A DNA stretch of 42,204 bases from positions 1 to 42,204 of the IMG/VR virus record IMGVR_UViG_3300046167_000527, one strand, 5' to 3'. The position numbers were made by a program, and so were the translations under genes. This document shows, piece by piece, positions 7,857-40,115 of the stretch (the first letter of the stretch is position 1; every line of letters starts with the position of its first letter). This DNA comes from a virus. The notes beneath the pieces were generated by a model. The model was not told the origin of the DNA. It worked only from the letters and a program-made list of their open reading frames with translations, and searched no databases.

Positions 7857-7934
7857 TCAGTGTGACTACAGCACGTGGTGGGTTTTTTAGACAGAAACGC
7901 AGACCGGCAGAGTCGGCAGGGAGAAATAGGTAAT

Positions 7935-8264
7935 ATGTCACAGAGTAGGAAACAATGGCAAAGAACACGAGAGTTTAAGATGGAGAATGGTGACCTGATC
8001 ACTCTCACAGAGAAAGTAAAGCAGTGGCACTATGACCGGAACCTTATTATTAAAGGTGCTACAGATAAGGATCAGTATATGAAACTGATTCAAGAGGCAG
8101 GAGAGTTATCTGATAATATCTGTAAGGGAAATGATATACGAGATGACATCGGAGACATGATGGTCGTCCTCATCAATATTGCTGAACGCAATGGTGTGAC
8201 AATGACCGCGTGCCTTGATCAAGCATGGGAAGACATTAAGGATCGGAAAGGGCACCATGGTTGA
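7935..8264 (+). CDS. MazG-like nucleotide pyrophosphohydrolase
   Basis: 109 residues from ATG 7935, which follows a GGGAGAAAT ribosome binding site; an upstream in-frame extension is poorly supported. It contains EAGE (E54, E57) and DDIGD (D71, D74), the ExxE and DxxD metal-binding pairs of all-alpha MazG-type NTP pyrophosphohydrolases. Phage MazG proteins are thought to hydrolyse nucleotides or alter host stringent signalling. It overlaps the next gene by eight bases. Confidence 0.8.
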   Translation: MSQSRKQWQRTREFKMENGDLITLTEKVKQWHYDRNLIIKGATDKDQYMKLIQEAGELSDNICKGNDIRDDIGDMMVVLINIAERNGVTMTACLDQAWEDIKDRKGHHG

Positions 8265-8439
8265 CGGAGTCTTCATCAAGGAGTCCGACAATCTACCAAG
8301 ACTACCCGATGACTGGGTGGAGTCTGGTGTCAAGGTTGCGTATTGGGAACCCACACCTGAACAGTTGGAGTTGGACCTTGAACCAAAGGGTTATACTCAT
8401 GTCTATAAGAACACAATAGGTGGATCAACCAAATACTGA
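8257..8439 (+). CDS. Small hypothetical protein
   Basis: 60 residues from ATG 8257, inside the end of the MazG-like gene. Starts MVDGVFIKESDNLPRL; a Pro-rich WEPTPEQLELDLEPKG segment in the middle. Its last base is the first base of the next start (TGATG). Unknown. Confidence 0.6.
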   Translation: MVDGVFIKESDNLPRLPDDWVESGVKVAYWEPTPEQLELDLEPKGYTHVYKNTIGGSTKY

Positions 8440-9131
8440 TGATCACACTCGGAGAATCTATCGGAGTATTTGATGACGTCGTGTCACGAGAGTGGTGCGA
8501 CGATGTCATTTGCATGTTCGAAAAGAAGATTACCGAAGCAGAGGGTCTACGCAAGGGTGATCCCGACGAGGATGTCAAGGGAGTTCTCTTTCGATCTAAT
8601 GAGAAACGCATAGATGTTGCGACTGGGATGCACAAGTACCAATCTATGGCGAGTCGACGAGAAGAGTTCTACACTGCACTTGAACCTGCCTTTGAATTGT
8701 ACATGCGGTCCATCACTGGGCAAGACAATAAGTCTTGGTGGGGAGACTTAGAGGAGATCGAGACCAAACTCCAACGCACACTTGCTGGTGGAGGGTTCTG
8801 TGTTCCTCATTTCGAGCAAGGCAACGACTCAGAGTGCGCACGACGATTTGGAGTCTACAGTCTCTATCTGAATGACCTACCTGAGCATTGCGGAACCGAG
8901 TTCCCCATGCACAATGCCATCCTCACTCCCAAGGCAGGACGTCTTGCGATCTGGCCAGCAGCATACACCCACCCCCATATGTCCTCTCCCGAGACTGGAC
9001 CAGACCAAGTATATCCTCACAGGGTGGTTCGTCTACCACATTCAGGGAAGCAACCGGCAGGTTCCCAAGACGTAAGTTGTTGTTATCATTCAGGTTCTTT
9101 AATTTGTCTTTGCTCACTTTTTGCGAGATAA
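8439..9131 (+). CDS. 2OG-Fe(II) oxygenase-like protein with a +1 frame break near its end
   Basis: The frame from ATG 8439 runs to 9131. It looks like a phage prolyl-4-hydroxylase-type 2OG-Fe(II) dioxygenase: FCVPHFEQG, a YSLYLND strand, GTEFP, then WPAAYTHPH, where the second metal His is expected. The usual ending KYILTGWFVY is not in this frame but in the +1 frame, which stops at TAA 9073-9075. That TAA is the first codon of promoter cassette 3, exactly as at other gene/cassette junctions, so the natural product probably ends at 9075. The break lies between about 8972 (run of five C) and 9010. Confidence 0.75.
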   Translation: MITLGESIGVFDDVVSREWCDDVICMFEKKITEAEGLRKGDPDEDVKGVLFRSNEKRIDVATGMHKYQSMASRREEFYTALEPAFELYMRSITGQDNKSWWGDLEEIETKLQRTLAGGGFCVPHFEQGNDSECARRFGVYSLYLNDLPEHCGTEFPMHNAILTPKAGRLAIWPAAYTHPHMSSPETGPDQVYPHRVVRLPHSGKQPAGSQDVSCCYHSGSLICLCSLFAR

Positions 9132-9747: not shown

Positions 9748-10044
9748 ATGGAAGTAAGTGAAGAAATCAAGATTGCAATACAGATACTGATCTTCGGGTT
9801 GGTTGTGGTTGCACGTCTACACATGACCTCTCACCTCGCTCGGAAACGAGTCTGGGGATTCTCTATGAATTGCTTTGCCGGAATATGCTACTGTGGTGTC
9901 ATGATCTACTCAGGGTTGTATATCCTTGCGGCAATGGATCTGGTCATCATGTGTCTGGATGCACGTGGTGTGAAGAACAACCTGCGTGATGTCGAAGACG
10001 GTCTGTTCCGTCAGTCAGAACAGGACTGTGACCATCCGAACTAG
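9748..10044 (+). CDS. Membrane protein upstream of the cytochrome gene
   Basis: 98 residues, starting two bases after the previous stop. Two or three hydrophobic helices (about residues 8-22, 37-52 and 54-68), with DARGVKNN after the last. Its 3' end overlaps the cytochrome c gene, so the two are coupled. No family recognised; it could be a membrane partner of the cytochrome, but that rests only on position. Confidence 0.6.
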   Translation: MEVSEEIKIAIQILIFGLVVVARLHMTSHLARKRVWGFSMNCFAGICYCGVMIYSGLYILAAMDLVIMCLDARGVKNNLRDVEDGLFRQSEQDCDHPN

Positions 10045-10285
10045 CATCCTGCTCCTCGTCCTCCTTGCCGGTTGTGGTGAACCCATGACCAGAGGTGAGG
10101 CAAAGTACCGAGTATGTGCTGGATGCCACGAGGGTGGCATAGGACCAAACCTCCGAGGCAGGGACGTCGCCGACTCCCTGCGATCCTTCCGAGATGGAGA
10201 GGGCAATCCTCTCATGCAGTCTCAGGCAAGTAACCTGTCCGATCAGGACATATCCGATATATCAGAGTATCTCCTAACCTATTGA
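10028..10285 (+). CDS. c-type cytochrome lipoprotein
   Basis: 85 residues from GTG 10028, chosen because it puts a lipoprotein signal directly after the start (TSILLLVLLAGC, lipid Cys16); an in-frame ATG at 9989 would give a longer head. The heme-binding motif CAGCH is at 30-34, followed by GGIGPNLRG as in small class I cytochromes c. Met63 in GNPLMQ is a candidate distal heme ligand, and the last segment (LSDQDISDISEYL) matches the usual C-terminal helix. Family role: periplasmic one-electron carrier between membrane complexes, matured by the host Ccm or Ccs system. All core elements are intact. Confidence 0.85.
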   Translation: MTIRTSILLLVLLAGCGEPMTRGEAKYRVCAGCHEGGIGPNLRGRDVADSLRSFRDGEGNPLMQSQASNLSDQDISDISEYLLTY

Positions 10286-10286
10286 T

Positions 10287-10355
10287 TCTATTCAAGTTTT
10301 CACTGTTGTCTTTGGTACTGGGTTGCGGGATAATAGATTCAATGGTTAAGGAGAT
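10287..10355 (+). promoter_or_regulatory. Early promoter cassette copy 4
   Basis: Starts just after the cytochrome stop (TTGATTCTATTCAAGTTTT). -35 TTGTCT at 10306-10311, 17-base spacer, -10 GATAAT at 10329-10334, then AGATTCAATGGTTAAGGAG. Confidence 0.8.
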
Positions 10356-10359
10356 TGAT

Positions 10360-10700
10360 ATGGAACTGGATTTTGATACCGCTGTTGATAAGTTGCTTGA
10401 TGCCGCTGCTACCGACTTTGCTCAATGGAAAGCAAGAGGAGAATATGGTAGTGCCAACGACTTCGAAGACTTCCGAGAGAACATCTACCGCGACGGTGGT
10501 CGTAAGTACCTCCGCATCACCAAGAGTCAAGGTGGTCAGCAGATGCGTCTGGGGTTTCGTCGTGTTAGCAGACGGTCCAAAGTTCAAGTGTGGTGACATC
10601 CTGAAGGCAGCATCTTGGGCAGCACCCGCCACCTAACAAAGCACGCGGCAACATCTTCGAAGAGTATGATGTTCGCTGGACCGGTCCAAACTACCTGTAA
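10360..10700 (+). pseudogene. Conserved T4-like phage protein, frame broken twice
   Basis: From ATG 10360 the frame reads MELDFDTAVDKLLDAAATD and continues to about 10541. The expected continuation VWGFVVLADGPKFKCGDILK is in the +1 frame, and after a stop at 10634-10636 the ending ARGNIFEEYDVRWTGPNYL is in the next +1 frame, stopping at 10700. I recall similar small phage proteins with the continuous order V-x-F...GDILKA..W.AP...ARGNI...WTGP. The ancestral gene is therefore about 112 codons with two one-base frame changes. Either a decayed gene or two sequencing insertions; the well-preserved protein sequence on both sides favours the latter. Confidence 0.6.
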
Positions 10701-11729: not shown

Positions 11730-12725
11730 ATGCGCTGGATCACACTTGGAACATCACTCTCCATTGCTGGAGTTGCTGCTTGGTATAGTATAGCAGGTCT
11801 CATAGCAATCTTCTCTGGGTCGGTAGTACCGATCGCCATCATGGGTGGAGTACTTGAGGTTGGCAAGTTGGTCACTGCTGCATGGTTGCACGCCAACTGG
11901 ACAGTGAGTCCTTGGTGGATGAGAGGGTATCTGACATCGGCGGTTATTGTGCTGATGTTGATAACTTCTCTGGGCATCTTCGGGTTCTTATCCAAAGCAC
12001 ACCTCGAGCATTCGATACAGTCACAGGGCGGTAACGAGATCGCATCCGAGGCACTGGAAAGAAGGATCGAAAGAAAGCAACGGGTCATCGACGATGCGGA
12101 GACTGTGCTGTCCCAGCTGGACGCGCAGGTCCAAACGCTCATCGACTATGATCGTATCCGTGGCAAAGACGGGGCGATGGCAGTCCGGAAGGAACAGAAA
12201 GAAGAACGGGCAGAACTCAACGCCCAGATTGATGAGGCGACTGACGAGGTTATTACGCTCAACAAGCAGTTGGACTACGGCAAGCAGAAGCAGTTGCAGA
12301 TTGAGGTCGAGGTTGGTCCGCTCAAGTATATCGCAGAACTGATATACGGAGAGGAGAACGCAGAGGATAACTTCGACAAGGCAGTGCGGTTCGTCATTAT
12401 GCTTCTGGTGTTTGTATTCGATCCACTGGCAGTTGTCCTGCTCCTAGCGGCAACAACCGAGTTTCGTAGAGAACAGACCAGCAAGATGTTCTATGACGAC
12501 GGCAACCTGAAGGTCGACCCGAACAATGTGGTGACCGTAGACGATCCCCTGCCTGTATTTGTAGAGACGGTAGAAGAAGTTGAAGTCGAACTGGACATAC
12601 CAGAAGACGAAGAACTGTCTGATTATGAGACAATTGTAGTTGAGGACGACATAGCAGATCCGACCGAAGTTGTCCGCAAGCACGAAGAAGGATGGTATAC
12701 CCAAGGCGGTACACCTAATGGTTGA
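11730..12725 (+). CDS. Membrane-anchored coiled-coil protein
   Basis: 331 residues from ATG 11730. Three or four hydrophobic helices in residues 1-95 and another pair near residues 225-245 (FVIMLLVFVFDPLAVVLLL). Between them is a long charged coiled coil rich in Glu/Arg/Gln, and the last 70 residues are strongly acidic. Comparable multi-helix plus coiled-coil proteins occur in T4-like marine phages without known function. It could organise membrane-associated replication or lysis timing; that is a guess. Confidence 0.65.
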   Translation: MRWITLGTSLSIAGVAAWYSIAGLIAIFSGSVVPIAIMGGVLEVGKLVTAAWLHANWTVSPWWMRGYLTSAVIVLMLITSLGIFGFLSKAHLEHSIQSQGGNEIASEALERRIERKQRVIDDAETVLSQLDAQVQTLIDYDRIRGKDGAMAVRKEQKEERAELNAQIDEATDEVITLNKQLDYGKQKQLQIEVEVGPLKYIAELIYGEENAEDNFDKAVRFVIMLLVFVFDPLAVVLLLAATTEFRREQTSKMFYDDGNLKVDPNNVVTVDDPLPVFVETVEEVEVELDIPEDEELSDYETIVVEDDIADPTEVVRKHEEGWYTQGGTPNG

Positions 12726-12750
12726 CTTTGAGTAACAATTGAGCGAGAAT
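12722..12750 (+). promoter_or_regulatory. Possible sigma-70 promoter
   Basis: TTGACT (12722-12727), a 17-base spacer and GAGAAT (12745-12750), partly over the end of the upstream gene. The -10 ends only six bases before ATG 12757, which would make a leaderless transcript, so it may be fortuitous. Confidence 0.3.
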
Positions 12751-12756
12751 TATATT

Positions 12757-13383
12757 ATGAATATCTTCCCCATAGAATACGACGCCAAGGGCAGACCCTG
12801 CCCTATCGAATCAGCAAGAGTGCAGTGCGATCAACACGCACAGAAGATGTACCTTGAGTCTGCCCAGATGCTGTCCACTGCCCACCGCCTGCTTGACGGC
12901 ACGGTGGGGGTTGTCCCGAGCACGGACAAGCAAGGCAACATGGTCTACCTCAAGTCGGGCAAACTCCGTGTCAAGAAGCACTGGAAACTCGACGACGAGC
13001 GCGAGACTGAGATGTACTTGGCAGTCCACCCCAAGCACCCAACCACTCTCTGGACTATGGAGTCTGCTGAGAACTACGACTGGCACTATGCCCACTTTGT
13101 AGAACTTCTCAACGAGTTCGAGCGTCGCCACAAGAAACTGCCCAAGACAGCAGTGATGAAAGAGATACTGGCACGTCGACCTGACAACATCCCCAATGTT
13201 CCGGCAACCCCAATCAAACTCGCAATGGCACAATTTCCACATTGCGTGGTGCGTGGACCCGACGGTGTCATCGACGTGGTAGAGTCTTACAGGAACTTCT
13301 ATATAGAGGACAAGAAGAGATTTGCAACTTGGAACAAGGGTAGGTCTGCACCAAGTTGGTGGGCAACCCAAGGAGTGAGATGA
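12757..13383 (+). CDS. Conserved phage protein (CDxHxxKMxLExAQ type)
   Basis: 208 residues from ATG 12757; an in-frame TTG at 12739 is less likely. The N-terminal signature is CDQHAQKMYLESAQMLSTAH, known to me from many phage proteins that share this Cys/His/Lys/Glu pattern. Later WTMESAENYDWHYAHFVELL and a C-terminal W-rich end. Function not established as far as I know. Its stop overlaps the next start. Confidence 0.7.
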   Translation: MNIFPIEYDAKGRPCPIESARVQCDQHAQKMYLESAQMLSTAHRLLDGTVGVVPSTDKQGNMVYLKSGKLRVKKHWKLDDERETEMYLAVHPKHPTTLWTMESAENYDWHYAHFVELLNEFERRHKKLPKTAVMKEILARRPDNIPNVPATPIKLAMAQFPHCVVRGPDGVIDVVESYRNFYIEDKKRFATWNKGRSAPSWWATQGVR

Positions 13384-16761: not shown

Positions 16762-17075
16762 AGCACGGTTCCATGACTCACGACTTCACTGGTCGCAAGA
16801 TCAAGAAAAAGAAACCTACAGGAGAGGTGTTTACTAAATACTCTGTGCCAGCATTCAAAGAGATGGAGAAGAGTATAAAACCTCACTTCCGTCGGGGTGC
16901 TGACATAGAGTATACCAGTGTAGACGACTCTGCTGGGACAGGGATCTGTGCGGCACCAGAGAAGAAAGAGTACACTGGTACTTTGGTAAAGGGTATTGGC
17001 ACTATGCACAAGAGCAATGCCATCCCAATCATTGACGAACAACAGATGAAAGATCTGGCAAGCATGAGGCGATAA
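16758..17075 (+). CDS. Conserved T4-like phage protein
   Basis: 105 residues. A Lys-rich N-terminal stretch (GRKIKKKKPTGEV), a Pro/aromatic middle (PAFKEMEKSIKPHFRRG) and the ending KGIGTMHKSNAIPI then MRR. The pattern YTGTxxKGIxTMHKSNAxPxxxxxxxxxxxxMRR is one I recognise from many T4-like marine phages. Function unknown. Overlaps the next gene by one base. Confidence 0.75.
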   Translation: MKHGSMTHDFTGRKIKKKKPTGEVFTKYSVPAFKEMEKSIKPHFRRGADIEYTSVDDSAGTGICAAPEKKEYTGTLVKGIGTMHKSNAIPIIDEQQMKDLASMRR

Positions 17076-17419
17076 TGGAAACAATTACTGACATCAACCC
17101 ACAAGCACTCTATGCCGCTGAAGCAATCAGTGAGTATCTGGAGAAAGACGGACACTCTGACCACGACGTGGAAGGCAACATCCGGTTTATCTGGCAGATG
17201 GAGCAAGAAGGTGCGTTGGTCGAACTACACATGATCAAGACCACCATCGACGGTATGTATGCTCTGGCAGTTGCCGACTACGGTGCCAACGGTGAGGTTG
17301 CTCGTGAGTGGTCTAAGAAGAACAAAGGGCACTTCAAGAAAGTGAAGAGTCTCCTTTGCCAGCACATGATGGGTCACACCGTCTACGATACCGAGACAGG
17401 CACACTGCTCGGTGAGTGA
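17075..17419 (+). CDS. Hypothetical protein upstream of the alternative oxidase
   Basis: 114 residues from ATG 17075. Starts METITDINPQALYAAEAISE; mixed alpha/beta, no membrane segment. Its TGA overlaps the GTG start of the alternative oxidase, so the two are translationally coupled. No family recognised. Confidence 0.6.
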   Translation: METITDINPQALYAAEAISEYLEKDGHSDHDVEGNIRFIWQMEQEGALVELHMIKTTIDGMYALAVADYGANGEVAREWSKKNKGHFKKVKSLLCQHMMGHTVYDTETGTLLGE

Positions 17420-17982
17420 ATGGTTTCGCCAAGTCGCAGACAAAGTTCTTCAGGTTCTTTGCTGACACTTTCTTCCGCAAGAAGTATGGTCAACGCGCGC
17501 TCGTTCTCGAGACAGTCGCAGGAGTCCCTGGAATGATAGGTGGTATGCTGACCCACCTCAAGTCTCTACGTCGACTTGAACGAGGGAATGGAGGCAAGAT
17601 CCACGAGTTGCTTTCCGAGGCAGAGAACGAACGTAAGCACCTGATGTTCTTCATGGAGTTAGTTCAACCAACCTTCATCGAACGGACGATCATCGTCGTG
17701 GCACAGTTGGTCTTCTGGCATTACTACCTGATCCTGTATCTGCTCTTCCCGAAGACTGCACACCTCACAACCGCATACTTCGAGATCGAAGCAGTGAGAT
17801 CCTATACTGAGTATTTGGAGTTGATCAAGTCAGGAGAGATCGAGGACGTACCTTGTCCACAGATCGCCATTGATTACTACGAACTGGTGCAGGACGCCAA
17901 ACTGTCTGACATGGTTCGGTTCATCCGATGGGACGAGGCGAGGCATAGTGACAACAACTTTGCATTTGCAGCAGAGTATTGA
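17416..17982 (+). CDS. aox: Alternative oxidase (AOX/PTOX family di-iron quinol oxidase)
   Basis: 188 residues from GTG 17416 (GTGA overlap; no better start seen). All AOX signatures are present: LET (Glu32), NERKHLM (Glu72, His75), EIEA then SYTEYL (Glu125), and RWDEARHSDNN (Glu174, His177). Together these give the six di-iron ligands. A hydrophobic segment at about 91-112 fits membrane attachment in one leaflet. Family role: oxidises quinol and reduces oxygen to water without pumping protons, bypassing the cytochrome chain. It is slightly shorter than cellular AOX and lacks the N-terminal extension. Plastoquinol-type relatives are known in cyanophages; this window has no photosynthesis genes, so a respiratory role is more likely. 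Confidence 0.93.
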   Translation: MNGFAKSQTKFFRFFADTFFRKKYGQRALVLETVAGVPGMIGGMLTHLKSLRRLERGNGGKIHELLSEAENERKHLMFFMELVQPTFIERTIIVVAQLVFWHYYLILYLLFPKTAHLTTAYFEIEAVRSYTEYLELIKSGEIEDVPCPQIAIDYYELVQDAKLSDMVRFIRWDEARHSDNNFAFAAEY

Positions 17983-18034: not shown

Positions 18035-18748
18035 ATGACAAACAAGAAGTTTAACATCAACCTAGCAGAACTCCCTAAGATCAAGAGGGTGACCGTCGAA
18101 GGCAAACGACACTATCAGTTATCCGATGGTGAGTCTCTGGCATACCCTTCAGTCACCACTGTCATCTCCGGATGCAAGAAGACTCAGGCAGGTTTGCGAG
18201 CATGGAAGAAGAGAGTCGGTAAGGCAGAAGCACAGCGTATCTCTACGCAGGCATCTACCCGAGGAACTTCTGTCCACCAGTTGATCGAGGACTATTGTCA
18301 GGGTCTGGAGTCGGAAGGCAAGATCATGCCTAACGCATTTGATATGTTCACTCGACTGCGTAATGTCGCAGACGAGCACATCGATAACATTCGAGTCATC
18401 GAAGGGTTGATGTACTCTGAGCATTTGCGATCAGCAGGCACAGTTGATATGATCGCAGAGTTTGATGGTAAGTTGTCAGTCATTGACTGGAAGACATCCA
18501 ACAAACCTAAGACCCGATCTATGATCTACAATTATTTTAAGCAAGAAGCAGCATACGCTGTGATGTTCGAAGAGATGACTGGCATTGCAGTCCCTCAGTT
18601 GGTAACTGTCATCACCACCGTCTGTGGCGAGTCTCAGGTATTTGTTGAGCACCGCGACGAGTGGATTCCAGGTTTTATAGAGTTAAGGGATCAGTATGAG
18701 TTGGAATTGCAGCGCAAGTTGGAATTACAGGATAGGGCATCGTCCTAA
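18035..18748 (+). CDS. PD-(D/E)XK exonuclease (MGME1/Cas4-like)
   Basis: 237 residues. YPSVTTVIS near residue 38, then RGTSVH (His81), GTVDMI (Asp138) and VIDWKTS (Asp151, Lys153) give the GxxD...DxK core of the PD-(D/E)XK nuclease fold, with the RGTxxH helix typical of MGME1-like and RecB-type phage exonucleases. Such proteins degrade single-stranded ends during phage recombination or host DNA breakdown. It has its own ribosome binding site (AAGAGAAG). Confidence 0.85.
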   Translation: MTNKKFNINLAELPKIKRVTVEGKRHYQLSDGESLAYPSVTTVISGCKKTQAGLRAWKKRVGKAEAQRISTQASTRGTSVHQLIEDYCQGLESEGKIMPNAFDMFTRLRNVADEHIDNIRVIEGLMYSEHLRSAGTVDMIAEFDGKLSVIDWKTSNKPKTRSMIYNYFKQEAAYAVMFEEMTGIAVPQLVTVITTVCGESQVFVEHRDEWIPGFIELRDQYELELQRKLELQDRASS

Positions 18749-20908: not shown

Positions 20909-22186
20909 ATGCCGCAGTTTAAGACAAGAGACGACTTAAAGATTCAACTCGACAAGTGCGGGTACTCTGACGTCACCGACGGTAAAACTTCTAAGACTGT
21001 GGTTATCCAGTTACCTAAAGGTGGAGACCGTGAAGGTTCCCTCCGAGAATCTGCGACAAAACTAAAGTCATTCGGTGCAAAGTATAATCCGACGGGCGGG
21101 CAATCCTCCGTAGGAAGAACCGAATGCACTGGTGGATTCAACATCGAATGTAAGATCAAAGGTGGCGGTGGATCCGGAGCAGGATCTGACATCACCGAAC
21201 TTGCCGAGAGTGCGCAATGCGTTTACCTTGCGGCAAAATACAAGAAGGGTCAATACGACCACAAGACCCTCGCAGAAGTCAAATCGTCCTATGACGTTTC
21301 TGATACCCTCAAGAGAATCAACGAAAAGATCACCGACGACTGGGTGGATTCGTCCAAACTCGGTGCCGAGATGATCGCGAAGAAGTTCCCGAACTCCAGC
21401 AAGAACTATGTTGCGCACCGTGGATCCCGTTGGGTCGACTCTCTCGAGGGTCACTGGAAAGACCTCAACAACGAGGCAGGCAAACCGTTTACCAACCTCA
21501 ACAAATGGTCTCCTGCGGACATGTACATTGTCTCCAGCAAGGGTAAGACTATTGACCTGACCAAAGCAAAGACTCTGGTCGAGTTGAACACCATGATGCT
21601 GGACGCATACAAGTCCAAGGACATCGTTGGTATCTCCCTGAAGAAGATGCGTGGCACTGCCCAGTTCAAGGAACTCAACATCAGCAACAACCGCAACGTG
21701 TATGAGTTTGTATCAAGCACCACAGGTCTGCGTGGGTTCTTCCAATCCGGTGACGGATACATCATGTTCAATGGTGGTAAGGCACAGTTCCGAAAGTTCG
21801 GGTCAACTTGGCAGGGAGAACTCAAGGGTAAGAACGCAAACATGGGTAAGGTTTCCGGTGGTCCAGTTATTGGGTTTGTCAAAGAATACTTCAAGAAAGA
21901 TATGACACCTCAACGCGACCTGTCCGTGGCAGACGATGCGACAATAGATCAGTTCTACGAATGGTACAATGCTTGTTCAGACACTCCTGCTATGGACAAG
22001 TATGACTTCTACAAGGCAGTCCAAGAGAAGGACATGAATTGGTTTGTCTCCAAGATCATGACCACACAGTTGATGGCAATTGTCAACAACGCACCAAAGA
22101 AGCAACAGGACGCATTCACCTCTGGTATGGTAAACTATGCCGCATCAGAATCCATCCTCTCCGGTCCATACTGTAAGGTCTATTAA
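20909..22186 (+). CDS. Conserved T4-like phage protein of unknown function
   Basis: 425 residues from ATG 20909 (GGAG site upstream; an in-frame TTG lies six bases earlier). Starts MPQFKTRDDLKIQLDKCGYS. A Gly-rich linker GGGGSGAGS at about 90-98 precedes ELAESAQCVYLAA, then KWSPADMYIVSSKGK and VGISLKKMRG. I recall proteins with the GSGAG...ESAQ...KWSPAD...ISLKK order next to the ligase-like gene in T4-like marine phages. Under late control, so possibly a virion or head-internal protein. It overlaps the next gene by one base. Confidence 0.65.
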   Translation: MPQFKTRDDLKIQLDKCGYSDVTDGKTSKTVVIQLPKGGDREGSLRESATKLKSFGAKYNPTGGQSSVGRTECTGGFNIECKIKGGGGSGAGSDITELAESAQCVYLAAKYKKGQYDHKTLAEVKSSYDVSDTLKRINEKITDDWVDSSKLGAEMIAKKFPNSSKNYVAHRGSRWVDSLEGHWKDLNNEAGKPFTNLNKWSPADMYIVSSKGKTIDLTKAKTLVELNTMMLDAYKSKDIVGISLKKMRGTAQFKELNISNNRNVYEFVSSTTGLRGFFQSGDGYIMFNGGKAQFRKFGSTWQGELKGKNANMGKVSGGPVIGFVKEYFKKDMTPQRDLSVADDATIDQFYEWYNACSDTPAMDKYDFYKAVQEKDMNWFVSKIMTTQLMAIVNNAPKKQQDAFTSGMVNYAASESILSGPYCKVY

Positions 22187-23421
22187 TGGAATCTTTCTTC
22201 ACACGCGAAGTTCTCTCCGAGCAGAAGAACACTCATATGACGCATATAGAGGACAAAGTTCTCTATGGTGGGGTAACGGGCACTCGTGAGGCGATCAATG
22301 CTCTCCGTGCGTTAAGAGACATGCTCCAAGGGAAACACAAGGGAGACATATCCGTTAAGTGGGATGGTGCCCCTGCGATCTTCGCAGGCACTGATCCGAG
22401 CGACGGTAAGTTCTTCGTTGCCAAGAAAGGCATCTTCAACAAGAACCCAAAGGTCTACAAGACCAAGGCAGATGTCGACGCAGACACCTCTGGTGACCTG
22501 AACGCAAAGATGAATGCAGCACTGGAGTTGCTCCCTTCGATTGGCATCAAGGGTGTCATTCAGGGAGACTTCCTGTTTGGTCCAGGTGACATCTCTACTA
22601 AGAACATCGGTGGTGATTCTTATGTCACCTTCCACCCAAACACAATTGTGTATGCACTGCCTGCCAAGAGTGCTGCTGCAAAAGAAGTTAAGTCGGCAAG
22701 CATCGGTATCGTGTGGCACACCACATATAGCGGTGAGTCGTTCGAGTCCATGCGGGCATCCTATGGTGTGAACGTCAACGCACTGAAAAAGAGCAGGAAG
22801 GTATGGTCACAGGATGCCATGTTGCGTGACGTCACCACTGCTACACTCGACGAGAAGACAACCAAGATCGTCGACGGATACTTGAAGACTGCTGGTACTT
22901 TGTTCCAGAAGATCTCGGGCAACACCCTGCGTGAGTTAGAGAAGCACCCAGAGTTGCCACAACTGATCGAACAATACAATAACACGTTTGTGCGTAAGGG
23001 TGCTATGCTCCCAGACTCACGTCGTCACGTTATCGGTCTACAGAATTGGTTGACCGGACGATACAAGAAAGAGATCGAAAAGAGAAAGTCGGACAAAGGC
23101 AAGAAGGCACAGCAGGCAAAGATGACTGCCATCATGGGTTTCTTCTCGAAGAAGAACACCGCCTCGTTAATTGCTATGTTCGAATTACAAAGAAATATAG
23201 TTTTAGCAAAATTAATCCTTATAAATAAACTAAATAAACTTGCGAACATTGATACGTTCGTTAAGACTTCCAAAGGTTATAAGGTGACGGGTCAGGAAGG
23301 ATTCGTTGCCATTGACAAACTTGGTGGTGATGCGGTGAAGTTAGTTGATAGAATGGAATTTTCCTATAACAACTTCTCACCCGATATACTTAAAGGATGG
23401 GATCAACCGAGCAGGAAATAA
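22186..23421 (+). CDS. Nucleotidyltransferase/ligase-fold protein (DUF6267-like)
   Basis: 411 residues, start in a TAATG overlap. SVKWDGAPAIFAG carries KWDG (Lys58-Gly61), the KxDG nucleotide-attachment motif of the ATP-dependent DNA/RNA ligase superfamily; GVIQGDFLF (about 123-131) fits motif III. HMTHIED near residue 17 is conserved in the phage family as I recall it (DUF6267). The full ligase motif set is not obvious. Late control and the N-terminus (MESFFTREVLSEQ) suggest packaging in the head. A TATAAATA lies inside the gene at 23220. Confidence 0.65.
   Translation: MESFFTREVLSEQKNTHMTHIEDKVLYGGVTGTREAINALRALRDMLQGKHKGDISVKWDGAPAIFAGTDPSDGKFFVAKKGIFNKNPKVYKTKADVDADTSGDLNAKMNAALELLPSIGIKGVIQGDFLFGPGDISTKNIGGDSYVTFHPNTIVYALPAKSAAAKEVKSASIGIVWHTTYSGESFESMRASYGVNVNALKKSRKVWSQDAMLRDVTTATLDEKTTKIVDGYLKTAGTLFQKISGNTLRELEKHPELPQLIEQYNNTFVRKGAMLPDSRRHVIGLQNWLTGRYKKEIEKRKSDKGKKAQQAKMTAIMGFFSKKNTASLIAMFELQRNIVLAKLILINKLNKLANIDTFVKTSKGYKVTGQEGFVAIDKLGGDAVKLVDRMEFSYNNFSPDILKGWDQPSRK
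23220..23227 (+). promoter_or_regulatory. Possible internal late promoter (TATAAATA)
   Basis: Exact octamer inside the ligase-like gene, about 200-260 bases before the next starts. The surrounding bases are unusually AT-rich for this gene, so it may be a working internal promoter, but the codons (IIINKLN-type) could also explain it. Confidence 0.35.
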
Positions 23422-26505: not shown

Positions 26506-29500
26506 ATGAGCATCCGTATTACCAGAAACACAAAGGGTAACTGTATTACCTTTATCGGTTCTTCGCAACCAGCATATTGGAACGCATGTCTGTCCGGTCG
26601 AGTAAACCCAGATGACTCTGCCCGAGTCGACGTCATCAACGACGTCCGAACCGTTGACAACAACGATCCAGTCTTTGAGTTCTACGCGGTAGACTACACT
26701 GTCTTCCAAGACGCAGAAGGTAACACTTTCGACTCTGCTGGTGAAGCAGCGAAGTACATTACAGAGAAGGCAAACGTACTGACTGATGCGGTAGAACTAA
26801 CAGCGAATGATAAAGTAAACTTCTCTCGCGACCCAACTAACACTTCCATCCTGACTTCCCTTGGTGACAACTATGGTGTAAACTCGATCAAGGCAATCGC
26901 AGCAGATGACGGCACCATCACCATCCGTGAATTCCAAGACGACTCTGGTCAAGACCTCTACCTTGGTCTGCGATCAAACAAAACAAGGATCGGTGGACAG
27001 AGTCAAAGTCTAAGTATTAATGCTGTTGTAAACTCTCTGAATGCTCTCTTCTCTGTTAACCCAGTTGGTCTGGGTGTCGAAGACGCGGTCATCTCTTTCC
27101 TATACACTCAAGAGACTCCAAGCATCACCTCTTTCGGAGACTGTACTGATTCAGCGGGTGTTGTGACCAAAGGCAGTAACACTGGTTCCCAGCGCAACGA
27201 TGGTTTCCACACTGACTCTGCCGACAACCTTATCATCAACGCTGGTGACTATTACCAGATCAATACCACCGGATACGACTTCGGTCGTAACTTCCTGTTT
27301 GGTCTGTTCAACAAAAACGGCATTGGCGTTGATGCTGCATTCGACAGCAACAGAGGACGTGGAGGTAAACTTGACCTTGGACTGCGCCTCGCTTCAAACG
27401 CGGCATATGAAGACGGTCCACACGGTGTTGTAATTGAAGAAGGTTTCTTCAAAGACCCACAGAACTCGACCCAATTCCGTGTAGGTATGAACGCAGATCG
27501 TCGCCTGTTCGTGTCGCACTTCTCAACAGAAACTAATGAATATCAGGACGTCGTTCGTTCCGCGTTCCCAGTAGACTCTGGAAATGAGTTTATGCTGGTT
27601 GGTTACATCCGATCAGAAAACGGTCAGTTCAACGCAAACGTTCTGCGTAACAAACTTGCGGACTCCGTGTCGGTTGCTTATCGATACATCGAATCACCAG
27701 ACAATGTTTGGAGATACCCACTGTTCGCGACTCCTGTTGAGGCAGGCGCAGTATCTTTAGCGAATGGCGGTAACGATAGTTCTGAAGCACGTCTGTTTAC
27801 TGACGATCCTTCTGGATCTACTTGGTATTCCCCAGCGACTGGTTATGTCGAAGACGGTACTTTTGAACCACAAGACAGTGGAGATGTTACTTGGACTGAG
27901 ATCCCGTCCGCTACTGATGCAGAAGCATCACCACCTGCGTTTAGTATCGCAGATCAAACCTTTACAGAAAATGCTGCTGCCAACATCTCGCTCGGCACTG
28001 GCACCTACACTCAGTCATTAGCTGGAGATCTTCCTGCTGGACTGACATATAACTCAAGCACCGGATACATCACAGGTACTACACCATATGTGAGCAAGGA
28101 TAAGTCTTGGTCTGTGACCCTGACTCGATCCAACGCTTTCGGTAGTACCTCTGACACTTTCGCGATCGCAATTACCAACAATGCGTCACTTGACAACATC
28201 ACTGGACTCACAACGTACCTAGGAAACACTATCCAACCTGATCTTCTCGAAGACGTAAGTGTCATGGATTCCGACTACGGTTTCTTTGCTGATATCAACC
28301 AGAAGTTGGAAAGGGGTCAGCAGGTTGACTGGATCGGAGCACCTGGAGATGCGAATTCTCCGAATGCCCCAACATACCCATACTGGGCAACACCCTTTGT
28401 TGGTATCGTTGACTCTACTATGGACAGCGCAGACAAAGCAGCAAACACAGACTCCGCTACTTGGTTGGTTGGATCCAGTTGGGACGTGAGAACAGTTATC
28501 TTTGGTGATTGGGTCGGCGGCAATGGAGTCAGCGCATTGGTTGGTTGGGACGACAACGGTAAGGTAGTTGGTTCGGGTTTCGTCAACGTGGACAAGACCT
28601 TCAGGATGGCACTGAGCGACTCTGATGGACTTATCCGTTTATATCGTAGTAACGGAAGCGGGTTTGATCTTTTGAAGACCAGTACTACCACCTTTGACTC
28701 TGAACAGCGTCTGTCGATGTGGTGGCCGAGTACTTATAATCCACAGAGAGCAAAGATCCCTTCGTTTACTTTCTCCAACATTGGTGCTAACGACTCCACG
28801 CCACCTGCTGGTTTCGCTTCTCCTCTGACTCATGGATTGATGGGCGGAGAACTAATCATGGGTGATGGTGATTCTGCTGGAATCACTACTACTTCTGCTG
28901 CAACTTTTCTCGATACGCTTGAACCTGGAAAGAGGTTTATCATTCCAAAGGAGTGGATCAATACCAACGTTCTCACCTTGATGAGAGACAGCGGGATGGG
29001 TTTCAACACGACCCAGAACGAAGGTGGTAAGGTATTCATCGGTGTTCCAAAGAGAACCGCTGACTTGCAGTCTAACCTGTTCTCAGACTTCACTGCTCAC
29101 CACCGTTGGGAATACATTTCCCCGAACGGTTCATTCAAACTACAAAAGCAAGCAGTGCACAACACCGGCGGTAGCGGGGGCAATGCTCACGTCCAGATTG
29201 GTTCAGATATCATAACCATCTCTACTACAAACTTTGACGACGCATACTACGATTGTGCTCTCGAGTGGGACGGTGAGCAGTTCTACGCCATTCAGTGTAA
29301 CGTGGGAGACCTGAACCAACAACCTGGAATCGAGAACGGTGGTTCTTTCAGTCGCGTTATCAGTACTGATGACTCTGCTCGTGCATTCACCAACAACGAC
29401 TATGCATCAGATTCCGCAGTCAACCTTGCGGTCGCGGTCAACAACAACGGTAGAGTCAGACTGCAACGGTCGGGTCTTCAGTTCATCGACATCCCTCTGA

Positions 29501-31497
29501 CTAGCAAAGACTTTGTTGCACACAGAGACAGCGCGGGTGCTGAGTTGACCTTCAACGACAGTGCACTACCAAGAAGTTCTCTGACCCTGACTGCTGGTCA
29601 CACTTATCGTTTCTACGAGAACCAACTGCCTGATTCTGCAAGGATCTCCTTCGTTACTCAGGCGGGTGACACTCCATACACTACTGGCGTCACCAGAAAG
29701 GGTTCGTATCCAGACTATCTCAACTACACTCAGATAGCAGTTGACTCCGCTGTGCCACCACTGAAGATGAGAATCGACAGTGACGCTGGCATTGGCATCA
29801 ACATCTCTGGTTCATCATACACTGCTCCAATTACTGGCGTCACCTTACTTGGTCCGCAGAATAACATAGACAGTGCTGCTGGTACACTGGACAGCGACTC
29901 ATACTTCAGACTCAACGAGACTCTGTCTGCGGGTGAGCGTCTTGTACTCAACGGGCAGTTCTTTGCAGACCTCATGAGTAAGTGGGGCACAGCAACAGGT
30001 AACATGTACATCGGTCTGGGTCCAGATTCAGACCACGGCGTTGGTTACCAACTCGACCTTCATGAAGACTTCAACCTTATGGGTCCATACCTCAGATTCA
30101 GACCTAACCGAGTCTACCTGTACAACGCCAACACATCGCAGGGTGGCGGGTTCAGTAACCAAGGGTCTTATGCAAACCTTGGCGACTCTGACGATAGAGC
30201 AGCATCCTCGGCGTTTATTGAAATCAGCGCAGACGGTACAACAATCAGTGCTGGTCTGACCAACGGTACTGATGGTGGCGATGCAACCAGCACTCCTCAG
30301 GTCGTATGGCCTGCTAAGAAAAGTTCCACATCAGGGTTCACCATAACTACTGGAGTGAACGTGATCGGTAATTGGTATTCTGGTGGTTCGTCAGATCCGT
30401 TCGTCATGGACAGCGTTGATTGGACTAGACTGTATGAGGTAACCACTCCTTCTCTGAACACAGAAATCACCACTGCTTGGAACAAAGCAGTTGACTTCTC
30501 TGGTTCGAGCGAGCATATGGTTAAAGTGTCCAACACTAATGCCAACTCCCCTCTCAGGATGGGTGGTATTGGCGGTGCGCATGGCATCGACTCTGATGGA
30601 GTTCCTGTCAACTCTGTTGAGGGTGAGTCTTATACTTCCGACGCAAACTTCGCTCGTCCTTGGGCAACTGCTTGTGTGTTCCAGACTGAAGGGCATTCAA
30701 GCACTCAGTACATCTGGTCAAACTCAGAAGGTACTGGTTCTACCAACGATGCAATCTACCTGAGAACAGACGCGAACAAGCATCTCTACTTTGGTTGGGG
30801 TCGAACTGGAGCATACAACGAATGTCGACTAGCACCGAAGAATGAGGACGTCGATACTTGGACTCTGGACACCAACGAGTGGTATGGAGTTTATATCGGT
30901 TCTACTGGACAGCGACACTCTGTGGACAGCGCAGGTGACGACCGTCTCTCCGAAGCATTCGAAATCAGACTCATGTCTAGTGATGAAGATGGTGGTGGTG
31001 CGTGGAACAATGACGGATACGACGTATGTCGACCAGCGGGTTGGCAGGCAGGTGCGAACGGTTTCACTACTGGTAACTCTGTGGAAGGCACCTTCCAGAT
31101 CGGAGCAAGAAACGGTACTGCTCCGTTCCACGGTAAGGTCGCTTCCTGCGTTGTAACCACCCTGCGCAGAAACGTTGCTATGCCATCCGACAATGAGATC
31201 ACTCAGATGGTTATCGACCCAACTAACTGGTTGCAGAACTACAGGGTCAACGTTGGAGGTTTCGGTGCGACTTACAGAGCACCTGATAGCAAGAACGATG
31301 CTACCGCTGTATGGCAGACAAACAACACTGCCTCAGCAGAAGCGACTCAGGTCTACGTGATGGGTGAAGGAACCGGTGATGCTTATCCGAGCATCAGGAA
31401 CCAAGGATATACTGGAGACACTAGCGTATCTTCGATGACTATGACCAACATGGTATCGAACGATATTGAAACTGTTACTGTTGACGGTCTCACCTGA
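26506..31497 (+). CDS. Giant tail-fibre/adhesin-like protein (1663 aa)
   Basis: 1663 residues, the longest gene in the window, six bases after the previous one. Beta-rich throughout with many Asp-Ser pairs. Around residues 480-565 is an immunoglobulin-like domain of the He_PIG/cadherin-like type (LPAGLTYNSSTGYITGTTPY). Several regions look like lectin or concanavalin-like jelly rolls (for example GVNVIGNWYSGGSSD and FHGKVASCVVTTLRR near the C-terminus). No transmembrane segment. Likely the host-recognition fibre or a large tail protein, made late. The frame is intact over 5 kb. Confidence 0.75.
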   Translation: MSIRITRNTKGNCITFIGSSQPAYWNACLSGRVNPDDSARVDVINDVRTVDNNDPVFEFYAVDYTVFQDAEGNTFDSAGEAAKYITEKANVLTDAVELTANDKVNFSRDPTNTSILTSLGDNYGVNSIKAIAADDGTITIREFQDDSGQDLYLGLRSNKTRIGGQSQSLSINAVVNSLNALFSVNPVGLGVEDAVISFLYTQETPSITSFGDCTDSAGVVTKGSNTGSQRNDGFHTDSADNLIINAGDYYQINTTGYDFGRNFLFGLFNKNGIGVDAAFDSNRGRGGKLDLGLRLASNAAYEDGPHGVVIEEGFFKDPQNSTQFRVGMNADRRLFVSHFSTETNEYQDVVRSAFPVDSGNEFMLVGYIRSENGQFNANVLRNKLADSVSVAYRYIESPDNVWRYPLFATPVEAGAVSLANGGNDSSEARLFTDDPSGSTWYSPATGYVEDGTFEPQDSGDVTWTEIPSATDAEASPPAFSIADQTFTENAAANISLGTGTYTQSLAGDLPAGLTYNSSTGYITGTTPYVSKDKSWSVTLTRSNAFGSTSDTFAIAITNNASLDNITGLTTYLGNTIQPDLLEDVSVMDSDYGFFADINQKLERGQQVDWIGAPGDANSPNAPTYPYWATPFVGIVDSTMDSADKAANTDSATWLVGSSWDVRTVIFGDWVGGNGVSALVGWDDNGKVVGSGFVNVDKTFRMALSDSDGLIRLYRSNGSGFDLLKTSTTTFDSEQRLSMWWPSTYNPQRAKIPSFTFSNIGANDSTPPAGFASPLTHGLMGGELIMGDGDSAGITTTSAATFLDTLEPGKRFIIPKEWINTNVLTLMRDSGMGFNTTQNEGGKVFIGVPKRTADLQSNLFSDFTAHHRWEYISPNGSFKLQKQAVHNTGGSGGNAHVQIGSDIITISTTNFDDAYYDCALEWDGEQFYAIQCNVGDLNQQPGIENGGSFSRVISTDDSARAFTNNDYASDSAVNLAVAVNNNGRVRLQRSGLQFIDIPLTSKDFVAHRDSAGAELTFNDSALPRSSLTLTAGHTYRFYENQLPDSARISFVTQAGDTPYTTGVTRKGSYPDYLNYTQIAVDSAVPPLKMRIDSDAGIGINISGSSYTAPITGVTLLGPQNNIDSAAGTLDSDSYFRLNETLSAGERLVLNGQFFADLMSKWGTATGNMYIGLGPDSDHGVGYQLDLHEDFNLMGPYLRFRPNRVYLYNANTSQGGGFSNQGSYANLGDSDDRAASSAFIEISADGTTISAGLTNGTDGGDATSTPQVVWPAKKSSTSGFTITTGVNVIGNWYSGGSSDPFVMDSVDWTRLYEVTTPSLNTEITTAWNKAVDFSGSSEHMVKVSNTNANSPLRMGGIGGAHGIDSDGVPVNSVEGESYTSDANFARPWATACVFQTEGHSSTQYIWSNSEGTGSTNDAIYLRTDANKHLYFGWGRTGAYNECRLAPKNEDVDTWTLDTNEWYGVYIGSTGQRHSVDSAGDDRLSEAFEIRLMSSDEDGGGAWNNDGYDVCRPAGWQAGANGFTTGNSVEGTFQIGARNGTAPFHGKVASCVVTTLRRNVAMPSDNEITQMVIDPTNWLQNYRVNVGGFGATYRAPDSKNDATAVWQTNNTASAEATQVYVMGEGTGDAYPSIRNQGYTGDTSVSSMTMTNMVSNDIETVTVDGLT

Positions 31498-36780: not shown

Positions 36781-38583
36781 ATGGCAAAGCAAGAATACCT
36801 TGGGGTCGAGATTGACCTTTCGCGTGATGACCTATTTGACGAACTAGGTATTCAAAGATTAAAAGAAAGTTATATGCGTGAAGACGAAACGTCTCCGCAA
36901 CAACGATTTGCTTTCGTCTCTCAGAAGTTTAGTTCTAACCCAGAACACGCACAACGACTCTACGATTACGCATCCAAACACTGGTTGTCTTACTCGACCC
37001 CGATCCTCGCATACGGGAGAACGGGTAAGGGCATGCCAATCTCCTGCTTCCTCAACTTCATCGAAGACACTGCTGAAGGTCTGGTGGGTAACCTGTCCGA
37101 AACTAACTGGTTGTCCATGATGGGTGGCGGTGTAGGTGTCGGGTTCGGTATCCGGTCATCAGACGAGAAGTCCACCGGAGTTATCCCACACCTCAAGACA
37201 TATGACGCGTCGTCACTGGCATACCGTCAGGGCAAGACTCGTCGTGGGTCATACGCGGCATACCTCGACATCTCCCACCCAGACATCATTGAGTTTCTGG
37301 AGATGCGCAAACCGACTGGTGACCCAAACCGTCGTTGCCTAAACCTGCACCACGGCATCAACATCTCTGATCGTTTCATGGAGTTGATCGAGCGTTGCAT
37401 GACAGACACTGACGTGGACGACGGGTTCAACCTGTGCGACCCACACTCAGGGGAAGTTCGTGAAACTGTTTCAGCGAGGGCACTGTGGCAGAAGATTCTC
37501 GAACTACGCATGGAGACAGGAGAACCATACCTGCACTTCATCGACACCAGCAACCGTGCGATGCCTGAGTTCCAAAAGAAACTCGGTCTGAAGATCCACC
37601 AGTCCAACCTCTGCTCGGAAATCATCCTGCCAACTAACGAGGAGCGCACTGCTGTTTGTTGTTTGTCCTCGGTGAACCTTGAGCACTATGACGCATGGAG
37701 CAAGAACGACTTGTTCCTCCGTGACATGGCAGAGATGCTGGACAACGTGCTACAGTTCTTTATCGACAACGCACCGGACGCAGTATCTCGTGCCAAGTTC
37801 TCTGCTGGTCGAGAGAGATCGATCGGCATCGGGGCACTTGGGTTCCACGCATACCTACAGAAAAAAGATCTTCCATTCGAATGCGCAATGGCAAAGGTCA
37901 CCAACAACCGAGTGTTCTCACTAATCCGCAGGAAACTCGACGAAGCAAACTTAGAATTAGGAAAAGAGAGAGGAGAAGCACCAGATGCGCAGGGCACGGG
38001 TCGTCGTTTTAGTCATGTCATGGCAATTGCTCCAAATGCAAGTTCTTCCATCATCATGGGGAATACCTCGCCGTCAGTTGAACCATGGAGAGCAAACGCA
38101 TATCGTCAGGACACTCTCTCAGGCGCATTCCTGAACAAGAACAAGTACCTTGACAGACTTATCCTAAGTAAAATTGAGTCGGGCGAAACCAAACAGGACT
38201 ACGACGAGATCTGGTCCAGCATTATCGCAAACGACGGTTCTTGTCAGCACCTCCGTTTCCTGACAGACGAAGAAAAAGAAGTCTTCAAGACTTCAATGGA
38301 GATCGACCAGCGTTGGGTTATCGAACATGCTGCTGATAGGCAGAACTTCATCGACCAGTCGCAGTCACTAAACTTGTTCTTCCGACCTGACGTGAACATC
38401 AAGTATCTTCACGCAGTCCACTTCCTCGCATGGAAGAAAGGTGTGAAGACATTATACTACTGTCGTTCAGAGAAACTCGGCAAAGCAGATAAAGTATCTG
38501 CGCGCATTGAACGTCAGGTGATTAAAGAAATTGATATGAGTGCACTCGTGAACGACGAAGAGTGTATCGCCTGCGAAGGGTAA
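36781..38583 (+). CDS. nrdA: Class I ribonucleotide reductase, alpha subunit
   Basis: 600 residues. It reduces ribonucleoside diphosphates to deoxy forms for phage DNA synthesis, with the NrdB partner downstream. Active-site features: SCF (Cys89), NLCSE (Asn276, Cys278, Glu280) and a second CC near residue 294; PNASSSIIMGNTSPSVEP; KTLYYCR with the radical-transfer Tyr pair; and a C-terminal CIAC pair that would be re-reduced by thioredoxin or glutaredoxin. It starts directly with the catalytic region: the N-terminal ATP-cone of E. coli NrdA is missing, explaining the short length (about 760 in E. coli), so dATP overactivity inhibition is probably absent. Complete frame. Confidence 0.93.
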   Translation: MAKQEYLGVEIDLSRDDLFDELGIQRLKESYMREDETSPQQRFAFVSQKFSSNPEHAQRLYDYASKHWLSYSTPILAYGRTGKGMPISCFLNFIEDTAEGLVGNLSETNWLSMMGGGVGVGFGIRSSDEKSTGVIPHLKTYDASSLAYRQGKTRRGSYAAYLDISHPDIIEFLEMRKPTGDPNRRCLNLHHGINISDRFMELIERCMTDTDVDDGFNLCDPHSGEVRETVSARALWQKILELRMETGEPYLHFIDTSNRAMPEFQKKLGLKIHQSNLCSEIILPTNEERTAVCCLSSVNLEHYDAWSKNDLFLRDMAEMLDNVLQFFIDNAPDAVSRAKFSAGRERSIGIGALGFHAYLQKKDLPFECAMAKVTNNRVFSLIRRKLDEANLELGKERGEAPDAQGTGRRFSHVMAIAPNASSSIIMGNTSPSVEPWRANAYRQDTLSGAFLNKNKYLDRLILSKIESGETKQDYDEIWSSIIANDGSCQHLRFLTDEEKEVFKTSMEIDQRWVIEHAADRQNFIDQSQSLNLFFRPDVNIKYLHAVHFLAWKKGVKTLYYCRSEKLGKADKVSARIERQVIKEIDMSALVNDEECIACEG

Positions 38584-39122
38584 TGAGAAACTACAACAAA
38601 GAGTTCATCCTCTCTCCCGAAGAACTGAAAGAAGCGACCGACTATTGCTCGGACATTCAGTGGGATGAAGTGTATCAAGACTACAACCTCTTCGACCTCC
38701 AACGCCACGATGTGTCGGAGTACGAGGGGTTGGGTTTCGCAAAGAGACTACAAGAGTATTCAGGTAAACCCGACTGCGTTGGGTTCTACTATCTGAGATA
38801 TATCCCTGGTTCTTTTACTAGGGTGCATCAAGACCACGAATCATCGATGACTATCGTGACACTTATCGATAGTAAAGACCTCGTGGGTGGAGATGCGATT
38901 GTTCGTCATGAGTACACAGCACGTGAAGGTGGCAGACCGGCAACAATGAAGTGTTGTAGAAACAAGAACGAAAACGAGAGACCACCATACGGACAGGAAA
39001 TGATTTTGGATGTCCTTCCTATGGAGGTTGGTGAGAGTTTGGTCTACGGTAACGACCTATCTCACGGTGTATCTTTGGTGCATGAAGGGCAACGGACTGT
39101 TCTTATCACATGGTTCAAATAA
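38583..39122 (+). CDS. 2OG-Fe(II) oxygenase-like protein between nrdA and nrdB
   Basis: 179 residues from ATG 38583, which shares a base with the nrdA stop; an in-frame upstream extension is inside nrdA. VHQDHESS gives HxD (His82, Asp84), and LSHGVSLVHEGQRTVLITWF gives the distal His161 and Arg171 that binds 2-oxoglutarate. FYYLRYIPGSF is the usual beta strand before the metal site. Likely a hydroxylase; in phages such enzymes may modify proteins or nucleic acid bases. Its position inside the nrd operon is notable. Confidence 0.82.
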   Translation: MRNYNKEFILSPEELKEATDYCSDIQWDEVYQDYNLFDLQRHDVSEYEGLGFAKRLQEYSGKPDCVGFYYLRYIPGSFTRVHQDHESSMTIVTLIDSKDLVGGDAIVRHEYTAREGGRPATMKCCRNKNENERPPYGQEMILDVLPMEVGESLVYGNDLSHGVSLVHEGQRTVLITWFK

Positions 39123-39131
39123 GGCAAAGTA

Positions 39132-40115
39132 ATGGCAAATTTTAACCTGACAGACGAACGAGAATACTTTAAACCTTTCAACTATCCTTGGGCATATGAG
39201 GCATGGTTGAAGCACGAACAATCACATTGGTTACACACCGAAGTTCCTATGGCAGAAGACGTCAAGGACTGGCAGAGAAAACTCTCTAGTGAAGAGAAAG
39301 CGTTCCTCACTAACATCTTCCGCTTCTTCACGCAGGGCGACATCGACGTTGCTGGAGGTTATGTCGACAACTATCTCCCATACTTCAAGCAACCAGAAGT
39401 CCGCATGATGTTGTCGGGTTTCTGTGCACGTGAAGCACTGCACGTTGCGGCATACTCTCACTTGATCGAAACTCTGGGCATGCCCGAGTCGACATACAAT
39501 GAGTTCTTTGAGTATGAGGCAATGGCAGAGAAGCACGACTACTTCATGAACCTATCCAAGAGCAACGGGACGAAAGAGTCTGTTGCGACCAACATTGCTG
39601 CGTTCTCCGCATTCACCGAAGGCATGCAGTTGTTCTCCTCTTTTATCATGCTACTCAACTTCCCACGTCACGGCAAGATGAAGGGCATGGGTCAGATCGT
39701 AACTTGGTCCATCGTCGACGAGACTATGCATGCTGAGTCTATGATCAAGTTGTTCCGCACCTACGTTGAAGAGAACCTTGAGATCTGGAACGACGATCTC
39801 AAATCCCAAATCTACGTCATTGCTGAAAAGATGGTAGAGTTGGAAGACAAGTTCATCGACCTAGCATTTGCGATGGGTCCAATGCAAGACCTGACTGCTG
39901 CTGAAGTTAAGACCTACATCCGATACATCTGTGACCGCCGACTCATCTCTCTGGGAATGAAGGGCATCTTCAAAGTTAAGAAGAATCCTTTGCTCTGGGT
40001 TGAGGAGATGATCAACGCACCGACCCACACAAACTTCTTCGAGAACCGATCTACGGACTACGCACGTGGTGCTATGAGTGGTGACTGGAATGATGTGTGG
40101 GGAGCAGCCTCCTAA
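39132..40115 (+). CDS. nrdB: Class I ribonucleotide reductase, beta subunit
   Basis: 327 residues. It forms the di-iron tyrosyl radical that NrdA uses. Ligands by alignment with E. coli: Asp70 (TQGDID), Glu101 and His104 (AREALH), Glu163 (FTEGM), Glu197 and His200 (DETMH); radical Tyr108 is four residues after His104, as in E. coli. All present, so a standard Tyr-radical class Ia-type enzyme is likely. It follows the oxygenase by nine bases with an AGGCAAAG site. Confidence 0.93.
   Translation: MANFNLTDEREYFKPFNYPWAYEAWLKHEQSHWLHTEVPMAEDVKDWQRKLSSEEKAFLTNIFRFFTQGDIDVAGGYVDNYLPYFKQPEVRMMLSGFCAREALHVAAYSHLIETLGMPESTYNEFFEYEAMAEKHDYFMNLSKSNGTKESVATNIAAFSAFTEGMQLFSSFIMLLNFPRHGKMKGMGQIVTWSIVDETMHAESMIKLFRTYVEENLEIWNDDLKSQIYVIAEKMVELEDKFIDLAFAMGPMQDLTAAEVKTYIRYICDRRLISLGMKGIFKVKKNPLLWVEEMINAPTHTNFFENRSTDYARGAMSGDWNDVWGAAS

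Follow-up and report, generated by a model that had tools for sequence, protein, structure and literature searches.

A virus of bacteria, its host probably a marine gammaproteobacterium, carries a full-length gene for alternative oxidase (AOX), an enzyme that passes respiratory electrons to oxygen without conserving energy. The gene lies at 17416-17982 (+) in a 42,204-nucleotide stretch of viral DNA (IMG/VR record IMGVR_UViG_3300046167_000527), hereafter the window. Many related environmental phages carry AOX as well, hinting that phages re-plumb their hosts' respiration during infection. Our analysis supports the first-pass annotation, which had proposed a phage-encoded AOX with all di-iron ligands inside a phage early region without photosynthesis genes, though one of its six ligands was misassigned and the single gene it described belongs to a large, apparently unremarked set of phage AOXs.

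Sequence and predicted structure

The gene encodes 188 residues from a GTG start and matches the Pfam AOX family (PF01786) at 209.3 bits (cut-off 22.7; E 7.1e-62), with residues 4-185 aligned to profile positions 23-215 of 216. Its length is like that of the bacterial AOXs, so it is not a truncated copy. Against solved structures, the only sequence matches are alternative oxidases (E 5e-35 to 8.5e-35), including that of Trypanosoma brucei (TAO; E 8.5e-35). Consistent with these matches, an AlphaFold2 model (pLDDT 90.7) is helical, returned AOX with a TM of 0.93 in a Foldseek search, and overlays TAO at 1.3 A over 187 of 188 residues with Z 25.0, whereas ferritin-like proteins score at most 13.7. 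Only the AOX family was matched in Pfam, and both sequence and predicted fold thus argue against assignment to another ferritin-like di-iron family such as bacterioferritin or COQ7.

Following the TAO ligand list of PMC7904559, all six di-iron ligands are present: E32 (17509-17511), E72 (17629-17631), H75 (17638-17640), E123 (17782-17784), E174 (17935-17937) and H177 (17944-17946), equivalent to TAO E123, E162, H165, E213, E266 and H269. The first-pass annotation had named Glu125 as the fourth ligand, but this conserved residue corresponds to TAO E215, which is not in the ligand list; likewise, the SYTEYL motif it described as a strand lies in a helix (residues 112-138). The conserved Y130 (17803-17805; TAO Tyr220) and the quinol-site residues R27 and L31 (TAO R118 and L122) are also present and, together with the ligands, are invariant in 127 representative viral and bacterial sequences. 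TAO Thr219 is Ser129 here, as in every bacterial AOX compared.

We also considered whether the protein might be a plastoquinol terminal oxidase (PTOX) of cyanophage type serving photosynthesis, as the only PHROG it matches is the cyanophage PTOX family (phrog_4235, E 2.8e-5). This now appears very unlikely. The cyanophage S-N03 PTOX aligns over only 48% of the protein at 31% identity (E 0.08) and lies on an extremely long branch far outside in the tree, and psbA/psbD (PF00124) is absent from 42 AOX-bearing viral records, including the complete phage C48C1, though many of these records, like the window itself, are fragments.

Distribution and origin of phage AOX genes

Among 50,697 phage records, only phage C48C1 (OQ984149, 156 kb) has a close relative, a 64.7% identical protein annotated as 'hypothetical protein' (WJE87901.1), and no DNA-level relatives of the window's first 20 kb were found in phage records. 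In IMG/VR, a scan seeded with the window's protein gave 82 confirmed stretches (80 kept), and a second scan seeded with bacterial AOX gave 524 (80 kept). The two lists may overlap, many contigs are near-copies, and IMG/VR may hold some host DNA, meaning that these are not counts of distinct phages. The T4 major capsid gene gp23 is present on 16 of 36 AOX records tested from both sets, many of them fragments. tmRNA genes were predicted on three AOX-carrying viral contigs (L054 8273-8688, L056 6356-6771, L071 4254-4636). The AOX of a cyanobacterial MAG (Synechococcus sp. CPC35) groups with phage AOX, and as this MAG holds a T4 gp23 gene, it probably contains phage contigs binned with it.

The nearest bacterial AOXs are mostly from marine gammaproteobacteria, at 54-63% identity, with one outlier at 69% (L083, discussed below). 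In a tree of 83 sequences (IQ-TREE, bootstrap/SH-aLRT), the window's lineage sits inside marine gammaproteobacterial AOX; this lineage plus L083 is supported 98/98, and 22 purely viral rows including the window are supported 100/90. The second viral set is scattered among SAR86, SAR92 and Halieaceae sequences. Phage AOX is therefore not one group on these data, which suggests several acquisitions without formally rejecting a single one.

Interestingly, the window's lineage is marked by a Met-to-Lys change next to ligand His75 (Lys74, 17635-17637 (+)). All 82 viral AOXs of the first set have NERKH where 79 of 80 bacterial AOXs have NERMH; Met is also found in all 80 of the second viral set, in TAO and in the S-N03 PTOX, so the signature marks one lineage only. 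One seed of the first scan contained this Lys, so the 82/82 is partly by construction, although the tree, which uses all columns, supports the lineage independently. The bacterial exception, L083 (JAAERX010000037.1, 1528-2094), is a gammaproteobacterial contig with isocitrate lyase upstream of AOX and cox2/cox1 downstream, in a family where 2 of 40 genomes have AOX, and it may be a donor of the phage gene or a recipient of one. It is possible, though we consider it unlikely, that the Lys gives the phage enzyme different regulation, partner or oxygen/quinol kinetics, a reading compatible with the function favored below. This is a single residue, however, and lying two positions along the helix from ligand E72, its side chain probably points away from the irons.

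Genomic context and selection

The AOX start overlaps the stop (GTGA) of an upstream ORF of 114 aa (17075-17419 (+)) with no Pfam or PHROG family, so the two are probably translated together. Downstream, 52 nt after AOX, lies a PD-(D/E)XK exonuclease (18035-18748 (+); phrog_298, E 1.7e-70; Pfam PDDEXK_1, E 1.4e-8), followed by a phrog_1462 phage protein (20903-22186 (+); E 9.5e-54), a DUF6267/phrog_455 gene (22186-23421 (+)) and a cytidylyltransferase-like phage protein (23859-25067 (+); phrog_3041, E 1.4e-72; Pfam CTP_transf_like). DUF6267 is found mostly in T4-like phages, with matches in 467 phage records, mostly cyanophages and other large marine phages, and the window's copy is closest to that of C48C1 (68% identical). 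The window also encodes a putative RecT-like DNA-binding protein (12739-13383 (+); phrog_624, 'DNA binding protein', E 1e-37), a gene also near AOX in other viral loci, and the large (36781-38583 (+); phrog_84, E 5.8e-166) and small (39132-40115 (+); phrog_86, E 6.4e-84; PF00268) subunits of ribonucleotide reductase. The exonuclease, RecT-like and ribonucleotide reductase genes support the proposed placement in a phage early region, although the time of expression is inferred. Elsewhere in the window are a 2OG-Fe(II) oxygenase (8439-9131; phrog_61, E 1.5e-16), another iron/oxygen enzyme; a MazG-like nucleotide pyrophosphohydrolase domain at the Pfam cut-off (7875-8264); and a 1663-aa protein with an Ig-like (He_PIG) domain, otherwise almost without known families (26506-31497).

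As one near relative of the gene, L083, lies on a bacterial contig, we asked whether a bacterial AOX gene might have been joined to a phage contig by contamination or chimeric assembly. Nine other viral contigs carry AOX inside the same exonuclease/phrog_1462/DUF6267/cytidylyltransferase block: L016, L022, L026, L028, L066, L072, L073 and L078 with DUF6267 downstream, and L071 by phrog_1462 upstream. phrog_1462 is upstream of AOX in L016, L026, L028, L071 and L078, and the exonuclease is near AOX in L026, L028 and L072 and, in the second viral set, in L200 and others. Some of these contigs are near-copies (L026 and L028; L072 and L073), but they come from separate assemblies, which speaks against a chance chimera. 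About 60 further contigs, C48C1 among them, carry AOX between the sliding-clamp and clamp-loader genes, and together with the codon-level purifying selection described below, these data make a host-derived artifact very unlikely.

In most other members of the lineage, AOX lies between the clamp and clamp-loader genes, and 55 of 78 loci have a tRNA-Thr gene (UGU, in six loci AGU) about 25-40 nt upstream, such as that at 11888-11963 of viral contig L001, marking a possible insertion hot spot; no tRNA was found next to AOX in the window. In the second set, AOX lies between uvsW-type helicase and gp55, or between RecT-like and exonuclease genes. AOX therefore sits at several places, repeatedly beside replication genes. 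Pairwise dN/dS has a median of 0.066 (22 pairs) in the window's lineage and 0.117 (190 pairs) in the other viral set, indicating purifying selection, though synonymous sites between the window and its nearest relatives are saturated and the ratio could not be measured for the window's own branch.

Possible roles in infection and comparison with known systems

AOX oxidizes ubiquinol and reduces oxygen to water without proton pumping (PMC7904559; PMC9243770). Although its activity is inferred, the phage enzyme is very likely active, and we favor, with moderate confidence, a model in which a working quinol:oxygen oxidoreductase of the bacterial AOX type was acquired by T4-like phages from marine gammaproteobacteria and kept by selection. 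Made during infection alongside the replication genes, it would sit on the inner face of the host membrane and keep the quinone pool oxidized when the host cytochrome route is slowed by high proton-motive force, low ADP, loss of host protein synthesis or oxidative/nitrosative stress. NADH dehydrogenase, succinate dehydrogenase and quinone-linked dihydroorotate dehydrogenase could then go on supplying carbon skeletons and pyrimidines for phage DNA, which the phage's ribonucleotide reductase turns into dNTPs. This benefit, which agrees with the role proposed in the first-pass annotation, remains an inference. No phage dihydroorotate dehydrogenase was found in the 20 records searched, so the pyrimidine link would rely on the host enzyme; the Lys74 change could alter activity; and related hosts may already have AOX, in which case the gain could be dosage or regulation rather than a new route.

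Alternatively, phage AOX may act mainly as a stress valve, protecting the infected cell and phage DNA from reactive oxygen or nitric oxide by preventing over-reduction of the quinone pool, a role AOX likely has in other organisms. C48C1 is annotated with NifU-like, peroxiredoxin and NAD synthetase genes (2305-2676, 9839-10432, 38353-38847), a redox-themed gene set, but its peroxiredoxin and NifU-like Fe-S protein genes are not next to AOX, which is placed beside replication genes, and we regard this explanation as unlikely. Less likely still, AOX could divert electrons to lower proton-motive force, helping lysis timing or impeding pmf-dependent processes such as superinfection or defense; the enzyme is non-proton-motive by family, but its position is with replication genes and not with lysis genes.

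Phage control of electron flow is known mainly from cyanophages, where quinol oxidases serve photosynthesis, and a true AOX in many phage contigs without psbA/psbD suggests that phages of respiring marine bacteria also manage the quinone pool. It is conceivable, though somewhat less likely than not, that phages of non-photosynthetic marine bacteria commonly carry a true respiratory quinol oxidase, acquired more than once from gammaproteobacteria and lodged among their replication genes, making non-energy-conserving respiration a widespread viral strategy in the ocean, with the change next to the di-iron site in the window's lineage tuning the enzyme for infection. We found no report of gammaproteobacterial-type AOX in phages in the open-access papers searched, which excluded most subscription papers, preprints and supplementary tables, and ocean-wide gene catalogs may list it without comment.

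Of the virus-encoded enzymes that have been described, the cyanophage PTOX is a phage-borne di-iron quinol oxidase of the same superfamily in T4-like phages (PMC3037559), but it is distant in sequence, tied to photosynthetic hosts and of different origin. Prasinoviruses, which infect green algae, also encode an alternative oxidase, which has been placed with algal PTOX (PMC12584671), and one hydrothermal-vent virus encodes cytochrome bd oxidase cydAB, a respiratory quinol oxidase but an unrelated haem enzyme (PMC12043954). TAO (PDB 3vv9, 3w54) shares the predicted fold, all six ligands and the Tyr220 equivalent, but is mitochondrial and has a longer chain. The bacterial AOXs of marine Gammaproteobacteria (SAR86, SAR92/Porticoccaceae, Halieaceae) are similar in length and share all ligands and quinol-site residues with the window's protein, which differs in being phage-encoded, in carrying Lys instead of Met next to ligand His75, and in belonging to its own well-supported lineage nested inside this group. 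Finally, the C48C1 protein belongs to the same viral lineage in a complete T4-like phage, but its gene is placed between clamp and clamp-loader genes after tRNA-Thr, while the window's gene sits just before the exonuclease.
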